Origin: an uncultured Erysipelotrichaceae bacterium
GTDB lineage: Bacteria > Bacillota_I > Bacilli_A > RF39 > UBA660
Assembly (NCBI GenBank): GCA_902785135.1
Contig: CACZXL010000001.1
Coordinates: 128,109-192,108 of the forward strand
Length of the DNA: 64,000 nt
Direction: 5' to 3'
Made by a program: the position numbers and the translations under genes
Shown: positions 52,785 through 53,620 of the stretch, piece after piece
How positions within the stretch are numbered: position 1 is the stretch's first letter
Layout of the letters: every line of letters begins with the position of its first letter
The notes under the pieces: model-generated
Seen by the model: the letters and a program-made list of their open reading frames with translations, nothing else
The model's database searches: none
Told to the model about the DNA's origin: nothing

Positions 52785-52813
52785 TTGACTATTATATCTT
52801 GTTATGGTATTCT
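52785..52813 (+). promoter_or_regulatory. Promoter of the hisG leader
   Basis: TTGACT (52785-52790), 17 bases ending TATGG, TATTCT (52808-52813); start expected near 52820. Confidence 0.75.
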
Positions 52814-52838
52814 TATTGCAAGAAAGGGAGAGATTATT

Positions 52839-52910
52839 ATGGTTAAAATAGTAAGATATAGTATTTTTAATCATGTTCATAATAGTCTGCACTTGTTAAT
52901 ACGACATTAA
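52839..52910 (+). CDS. Histidine-rich leader peptide (23 residues) of hisG attenuator
   Basis: ATG at 52839 with AAAGGGAGAG 6 bases before it. The ORF of 23 codons has His at positions 12, 14, 18 and 23, that is four of the last twelve residues (pattern NHVHNSLHLLIRH), and stops at TAA 52908-52910. Its 3' third is also the left arm of the first RNA hairpin (52889-52904). The unusual codons CTG, CAC and CGA lie in that arm. The arrangement is that of an amino-acid leader peptide read by a stalling ribosome, with histidine as the sensed amino acid. Confidence 0.72.
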   Translation: MVKIVRYSIFNHVHNSLHLLIRH

Positions 52911-53010
52911 AAAATCGTAGGTACAAGTGCTATTTGTCGTGCTTGTATCTAGTATAATAACGATAAGTATTCTCTATTATGCTACTGCAAGCACTGCGGT
53001 AGCATTTTTT
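52889..53010 (+). promoter_or_regulatory. Transcription attenuator of hisG (alternative helices and terminator)
   Basis: Segment 1 GCACTTGT (52889-52896) pairs with segment 2 ACAAGTGC (52923-52930), extended inside by TACGA/TCGTA (52900-52904/52915-52919). Segment 2 can instead pair with segment 3 GTGCTTGT (52939-52946, two G-U pairs). Segment 3 can also pair with CAAGCAC (52988-52994), which lies in the loop and inner stem of the terminator ATGCTACTGC/GCGGTAGCAT (52979-52988/52996-53005) followed by six T. The helices are mutually exclusive, so ribosome position on the leader peptide can decide termination before hisG. Confidence 0.75.
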
Positions 53011-53044
53011 ATTATTAAAAAAATGATATGAAAGGAGAATGAAT

Positions 53045-53620
53045 ATGGTTAATATAGTTTTATCAAAAGGTAGAATAGAAAAAACATTTATAAAAAGATT
53101 AATAGATAAAAAAATTATAAATGAAATTGATTATAACAGAGAATTAGTTATAAAAACAGAAAATCTAGAAATTTGGATAGTCAATTCAAAAGATGTTTTT
53201 TCTTTATTGGAAAAAGATTCTAGTATTGGAATAGTTGGAAGTGATGTAATTGAAGAATTTAATCAAGATAACTATGTAGAATTATTAGACTTGAATTCAG
53301 GTATATGTAGTTTTTCTTTAGCGGCAACACCTAAAACCAAATTAGAGGACATAAAAACTGTTGCGACTAAGTATCCTAAAATAGCCAAGAAATGTTTAGA
53401 AGAAATAAAACTTAAATGCGAAATAATTAAAAAAAATGGATCTTTAGAACTATATCCTAGAATAGGCTATGTAGATGGAATAATAGATTTGGTACAAACA
53501 GGAGATACTTTGAAAGCTAATGGATTAGTAGAATTAAAAAAATTCGAAAAAGTATCTACAAAGGTAATAACTAAAAAAGAGAATCAAGAAATAAAAAAAT
53601 TGATAAATAAATTAAAATAG
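53045..53620 (+). CDS. hisG: ATP phosphoribosyltransferase, short form (HisG)
   Basis: 191 residues from the ATG at 53045, 7 bases after AAAGGAG; an in-frame ATG at 53039 is too close to that site. Family segments are MVNIVLSKGRIEK, IGIVGSDVIEE, VATKYPKIAKKCLEE and the C-terminal GYVDGIIDLVQTGDTLKANGL, with the PRPP-binding loop. It is the short form, lacking the ACT-like regulatory domain, which normally needs HisZ; no hisZ or other his gene lies in the window. First step of histidine synthesis (ATP + PRPP). The attenuator upstream supports true HisG function. Confidence 0.88.
   Translation: MVNIVLSKGRIEKTFIKRLIDKKIINEIDYNRELVIKTENLEIWIVNSKDVFSLLEKDSSIGIVGSDVIEEFNQDNYVELLDLNSGICSFSLAATPKTKLEDIKTVATKYPKIAKKCLEEIKLKCEIIKKNGSLELYPRIGYVDGIIDLVQTGDTLKANGLVELKKFEKVSTKVITKKENQEIKKLINKLK

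Follow-up and report, generated by a model that had tools for sequence, protein, structure and literature searches.

Why a bacterium in which no other histidine biosynthesis gene was found should retain a single hisG, and retain it behind a short leader rich in His codons, is the question raised by a 64,000-nucleotide stretch of DNA from an uncultured Erysipelotrichaceae bacterium (herein the window; genome G000). As argued below from sequence and from its comparison among relatives, the region upstream of hisG is very probably a transcription attenuator that acts in cis, is mediated by the ribosome and senses charged tRNA-His through a chain of five RNA segments in which pairing alternates between neighbours.

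An orphan hisG and its leader

The hisG gene (53045–53620; all features described here lie on the forward strand) encodes a short-form ATP phosphoribosyltransferase of about 191 amino acids (TIGR00070, 131 bits against a cut-off of 75.75), with an alternative start possible at the ATG at 53039. The initial annotation, made from the window alone, described the gene as a lone hisG, and this description holds genome-wide: it is the only HisG match in G000, and the HisA/HisF-like matches in the genus (29–39 bits) are partial, the one that was examined, which is also the only such match in G000, being DusB. Because the assembly is 94% complete the absence of any single gene is not proven; HisD, however, is missing from all 12 genomes of the genus. 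Only three of these 12 have kept hisG, which here would have outlasted the rest of its pathway. Orphan copies of hisG behind a His attenuator were seen in the window and also at L002, L003 and L095.

The leader element is located between asnB and hisG on contig C1 of the 1.09-Mb assembly. It opens with a promoter-like site (52785–52813; TTGACT-17-TATTCT, with TG ahead of the second hexamer and 9 of 12 consensus matches) whose score is weak on its own and near chance (three such sites in the region vs. 1.9 in shuffles), and relatives carry a TTGACA/TATAAT-like sequence at the equivalent place. A Shine-Dalgarno sequence (AAAGGGAGAG, 52823–52832; kept in G006 and G010) is followed by a leader open reading frame of 23 codons (MVKIVRYSIFNHVHNSLHLLIRH, 52839–52910), kept in the genus and the family, that ends LHLLIRH before its stop. 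Its four His codons start at 52872, 52878, 52890 and 52905, all within the final 12 codons, and the peptide ending is conserved as HxHNSLHLLIRH among genus mates and as HHHN(S/N)LHLLIRH family-wide. The promoter, ribosome site and His-rich reading frame that had been recognized initially are all present in the sequence, and the leader is a short translatable reading frame with a Shine-Dalgarno sequence and regulatory codons that match the amino acid of the target gene. The His codons had also been contrasted with those of the enteric leader for being interspersed, which is true of the window: instead of the three to five consecutive His codons that lie immediately upstream in the his attenuators of Firmicutes described in PMC9413887, it has HVH. 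Most family members, however, have HHH or HHHH just upstream of the first pairing segment, and the interspersed arrangement is a local peculiarity of the window's genus.

Pairing, conservation and distribution of the leader RNA

The leader RNA has a predicted fold of −63.1 kcal/mol (z −6.1 vs. shuffles), and the region contains two terminators, as compared with 0.1 in shuffles. Segment 1 (GCACTTGT, 52889–52896) pairs with 52923–52930, and the resulting 1:2 hairpin includes an inner helix (52900–52919; TACGA at 52900–52904 with TCGTA at 52915–52919) that holds the leader stop codon in its loop. Segment 2 (GGTACAAGTGC, 52920–52930) can pair with segment 1 or with 52939–52949, and segment 3 (GTGCTTGTATCTAGTATAATA, 52939–52959) with segment 2 or segment 4. 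Segment 4 (TATTATGCTACTGCAAGCAC, 52975–52994) comprises the 5' flank, 5' arm and loop of the terminator, and its partner is segment 3 (as antiterminator) or, via the arm, segment 5. The intrinsic terminator itself (52979–53010), detected by folding and by a terminator scan, consists of the 4:5 stem (52979–53005) and a T tract. The positions assigned at the outset to the pairing segments (52889–52896, 52923–52930, 52939–52946 and 52988–52994) stand as given, and the three mutually exclusive helices proposed there (1:2, 2:3 and segment 3 with the terminator loop) do exist; however, the terminator stem measures 11 bp and not 10, 2:3 is an 11-bp hairpin (52920–52930 with 52939–52949), and the loop pairing is part of a 3:4 helix of about 19 bp (52939–52959 with 52975–52994; duplex energy −21.9 kcal/mol) that includes the entire 5' arm of the terminator. 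The whole can be read as a chain of 1:2, 2:3, 3:4 (antiterminator) and 4:5 (terminator) in which each segment would be able to pair with either neighbour. An extra local hairpin able to occupy segment 3 was seen in the window and in L093.

Two further genus members with hisG carry the same leader (MIKRTKIKKFNHIHNSLHLLIRHC and MYKRFIIQFIHHNSLHLLIRH), and about 75 nt of RNA are near-invariant across the three hisG leaders of the genus, while their HisG proteins are 50–51% identical. A covariance model built from these three leaders (R1) gave matches in 29 of the 291 family genomes searched; these 29 belong to 24 genera and have between one and three copies apiece. With models built from 36 (R2) and 56 (R3) members, the element was recovered in 33 of 385 genomes of the order (every match lying within the same family) and in 14 of 395 genomes of the class, and a sample of the phylum gave matches in seven of 392 genomes, one of which (L168) was rejected, the others belonging to the same class; these genome counts are lower bounds, since searches over 40 genomes used strict filters. 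The L168 match has neither a His or Arg leader nor a terminator and is attributed to chance. A related-looking sequence before an ABC-F gene (L161, 1451–1575), with the leader MFTINITPLSH and no His or Arg run, is maybe an antibiotic-type attenuator or a chance match and was excluded from the element set. Among HisG relatives, a text-pattern search for the genus motif found it in two genus members only, such a search being limited to the genus because the motif is too divergent elsewhere; the covariance model later added L014, L015 and L022, the last of these being the Clostridioides difficile leader, which R2 matched with 60.5 bits (E 2.8e-9).

A vestige of a full his operon, passed down together with hisG and no longer functional in a histidine auxotroph, would suit a genome without hisD and hisA/F in a genus where hisG itself is so seldom kept (3/12), and other families do have the element before hisZ-hisG. 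We nevertheless consider this quite improbable, as the RNA is better conserved than HisG, and in the small genomes of the family the element is also kept ahead of many further genes, in up to three copies per genome and with two specificities.

Covariation across related genomes, which the initial annotation had put forward as a check, also points to a functional attenuator. When 36 members are aligned with MAFFT alone, without fitting to structure, both partners have changed in 12 of the 22 pairs that make up helices 1:2 (inner helix included) and 4:5, and 90.7% of cells are paired, a value that none of 500 shuffles reached and that compares with 20–43% in slid controls. Across 56 members in a model-fitted alignment, which leans toward structure, 19 of the 22 pairs in the same two helices are doubly changed and 96.1% of cells are paired (0/500 shuffles as high). 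Helix 2:3 is paired in 91.6% of cells, but its covariation at fixed columns is modest, in part owing to a change of register in the upper part of the helix in two subgroups. As a way around problems of alignment, we also compared the duplex energies of segments taken from the same leader with those of segments taken from different leaders. Same-leader duplexes were favoured for 1:2 (−15.4 vs. −13.4), 2:3 (−17.9 vs. −14.5), 3:4 (−15.0 vs. −11.9) and 4:5 (−13.5 vs. −6.6), with 0 of 300 permutations as extreme in every case, and the control pairings 1:3, 2:4 and 1:4 gave no same-leader advantage; kinship among the sequences weakens or inflates permutation tests of this kind, and should inflate the control pairings too. 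Applied to members from beyond the family, C. difficile among them, the same test returned 0, 7, 0 and 0 of 2000 for 1:2, 2:3, 3:4 and 4:5, respectively. The mutually exclusive helices that lead to terminator and antiterminator co-vary, 2:3 alone being weak at fixed columns, and the His-coding leader and all of the pairings are conserved and co-varying across related genomes.

Ribosome position and the predicted switch

Ribosome geometry was measured in 55 leaders under an assumed footprint that extends from the first base of the P-site codon over 14 nt in the upstream direction and 15 nt in the downstream direction. With the first regulatory codon in the A site, the ribosome ends before segment 1 in all 55 leaders, leaving a gap of 1–10 nt (median 4), so that under this footprint the first segment is not masked by a stalled ribosome as it is in the enteric design. 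With the ribosome at the stop codon, at least six of the eight nucleotides of segment 1 are covered in 54 of the 55 leaders, and none of segment 2. The position of the stop varies, falling upstream of segment 1 in some leaders with Arg codons and downstream in most with His codons, and the masking holds.

Since the stalled ribosome would leave segment 1 clear and the finished ribosome would mask it, starvation is predicted to give readthrough and plenty to give termination. When histidine is short, the ribosome would stall on the first of the His codons, with its edge just before segment 1, and 1:2 would form; segment 3 would then be free to capture the 5' arm of the terminator (3:4), and RNA polymerase would continue into hisG. 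With ample histidine, the ribosome would reach the leader stop and mask segment 1, which would allow 2:3 to form and the terminator (4:5) to fold. In this model 1:2 and 3:4 would also form without any translation, and a switch that is ON by default appears reasonably likely. Loss of leader translation results in termination in the enteric trp and his leaders; against this textbook behaviour, abolishing leader translation here should switch the genes on, not off. The antitermination geometry had been called unusual in the initial annotation, and we would agree, although for a different reason, namely a five-segment chain with a predicted ON default in the absence of translation.

Equilibrium folding of the full window leader favours the terminator in the first-His stall and the antiterminator in the stop-codon state, opposite to the prediction. 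The predicted order, 1:2 then 3:4 as against 2:3, is seen only when an incomplete transcript is folded. The competition must therefore be kinetic, and the model rests on kinetics, because the needed order of helices appears only when the growing transcript is folded; classic attenuators likewise depend on kinetic competition. In Bacillus subtilis, RNA polymerase can run ahead of the translating ribosome, and this would bear on any switch of the type proposed here. Compared with its relatives, the window's genus has a smaller number of His codons ahead of segment 1, the third (52890) lying inside segment 1, and the second stall position already touches that segment.

This third codon would fit a conventional enteric-type attenuator, in which a stalled ribosome masks segment 1, 2:3 acts as the antiterminator and lack of translation leads to termination (super-attenuation); this is the usual design, and it has a demonstrated Gram-positive example in Listeria Rli60 (PMC5864092). 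Such an arrangement seems improbable here, as the terminator forms without segment 3, which pairs instead with the terminator's 5' arm, and as the His or Arg runs lie upstream of segment 1 rather than in it, leaving the masking to the finished ribosome.

Re-coded leaders, target genes and precedents

Among the 55 leaders, 44 are of His type and 11 of Arg type (for example, the Arg-run leaders MKLFLQNNRRRYR, MKLINILNRRRLIKRLVIR and MNLFMTNIIRRRRYRRHLRKR), which suggests that one attenuator scaffold has been re-coded from His to Arg. Nine of the 11 Arg-type leaders precede ArgE/DapE-like M20 genes, one (L162) precedes a short operon with argS (3.3e-16 to TIGR00456) and one (L156) another protein. 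M20 genes also stand behind some His-type leaders, and in a tree of 16 M20 proteins the Arg-type and His-type targets are split on one branch with 100/100 support. Both types occur together in one genome (G152), which has His-type copies before hisS (L099) and the gene for a 487-aa protein (L122) and an Arg-type copy at L123. The Arg codons of the swapped leaders are mixed (CGT, AGA, CGC and CGA), and thus the amino acid, not the codon sequence, is what is kept.

This codon swap, which follows the target gene, is the strongest evidence that the sensor would be a ribosome and not a ligand pocket. If the short reading frame were incidental and the RNA were a T-box or a riboswitch for histidine, PRPP, ATP or a nucleotide, the very stable fold might be explained, and so might the extreme conservation of bases in the 1:2 and 2:3 core within the genus. 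Such an element would not explain why the reading frame, its Shine-Dalgarno sequence and its frame are conserved, why His codons give way to a mixture of Arg codons as the target gene changes, or why the stop shifts position yet segment 1 stays masked; moreover, none of the Rfam covariance models searched (T-box RF00230, RF00514, riboswitches and sRNA) reached its gathering score, weak matches with E of 0.16 or worse being discarded. We therefore judge a ligand-binding element highly improbable, and the covariance search confirms the initial impression that no T-box is visible. That the progress of the ribosome over the His codons selects among the helices, as was first proposed for this locus, is instead supported by the conserved, co-varying leader and pairings, the lack of a T-box match and codon identities that track the target gene.

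Within the family, hisS is the commonest target of the His-type element (343 bits to TIGR00442 at L094). The others are orphan hisG, GNAT and M20 pairs or M20 alone, a set comprising an 81–107 aa protein, a PRTase-like protein and a TIGR00725/LOG-like protein, a relative of the CntK-like histidine racemase (L118; 7.7e-15 to NF033599, a 150-aa fragment below the model cut-off) and a protein of about 487 aa. The 81–107 aa and PRTase-like proteins (the latter with weak PF24390 similarity) recur together at L096, L107, L109, L112, L121, L137 and L141, joined by the TIGR00725/LOG-like protein where the locus extends far enough, and the set is possibly a histidine-related nucleotide pathway. A protein of about 466–498 aa (beginning MIAGSYPTIITSGGNPR) was seen behind a His attenuator at L103, L104, L106, L122 and L134; a search with the L103 copy returned no PDB or NCBIfam match. 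The genome of L002 has a second, weaker copy of the element (L012, 1351–1513; leader MKNNTFRNFWHHIGNTYTTR) before an M20 peptidase and then a trpS-like gene.

Shared regulation of this kind would assign to histidine or arginine metabolism many genes of uncultured gut bacteria that have had no assigned role, the lone hisG included. We see about an even chance that the element represents a distinct class of attenuator, with five segments, a default ON state, masking of segment 1 by finished translation and re-coded His or Arg specificity, which in a small-genome, probably histidine-auxotrophic gut lineage has spread until it controls a regulon of orphans (the lone HisG, the PRTase-like pair with the LOG-like protein, the M20/GNAT pair, the racemase-like protein and the ~487-aa protein) that marks an undescribed pathway of histidine salvage or modification.

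His leader peptides in Firmicutes are already known, having been proposed in 2010 and 2022: upstream of hisS* and hisZ in Bacillus (PMC2965389), and as candidate histidine attenuators of his operons in the Bacillus cereus group, Peptostreptococcaceae including C. difficile, and Erysipelotrichales (PMC9413887). The initial contrast between his attenuation as classic in enterobacteria and T-boxes as the usual device in Bacillota overlooked these precedents. The Bacillus leaders are alike in having consecutive His codons in a reading frame ahead of hisS-family genes in a Gram-positive and differ in lineage, and the five-segment logic, Arg form and wider targets are absent from their description in the accessible part of PMC2965389. 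The his-operon attenuators share the His-rich leader peptide, the attenuator, terminator and antiterminator hairpins and the lack of a T-box; as far as the accessible part of PMC9413887 goes, they were published for complete his operons only, whereas the window's element belongs to an uncultured small-genome lineage, precedes an orphan hisG and many other genes, and has an Arg form. Leader-peptide attenuation has experimental support in Gram-positives for Listeria Rli60 and the Staphylococcus aureus ilv-leu operon (PMC5864092, PMC5794164); these, however, respond to branched-chain amino acids, and Rli60 has four segments and is OFF by default, start-codon and RBS mutants lowering its expression (PMC5864092). 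With the enterobacterial his leader (RF00514) the element shares the principle that a ribosome on His codons chooses between terminator and antiterminator, and it differs in giving no match to that model, in regulatory codons upstream of segment 1, in an odd number of segments and in its predicted ON default. What is new is the lineage, the wide target set in a small-genome family, the Arg-specific form and the prediction of a five-segment, default-ON switch; in the open-access literature we found no papers on this lineage's element, its Arg form, its target set or such a design.

Outside the family nearly all copies precede hisZ-hisG, including those of two uncultured Clostridia (L014 and L015) and C. 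difficile (L022), gene names that here rest on read translations and position, and the window's element is therefore best seen, on this comparison, as probably descended from the attenuator of a his operon. The C. difficile his leader forms the same four helices as the family element. One locus (L158) has tandem His attenuators before hisZ-hisG (1320–1475 and 1501–1649), each with its own HHH or HHHH leader, and L171 seems to share this arrangement.
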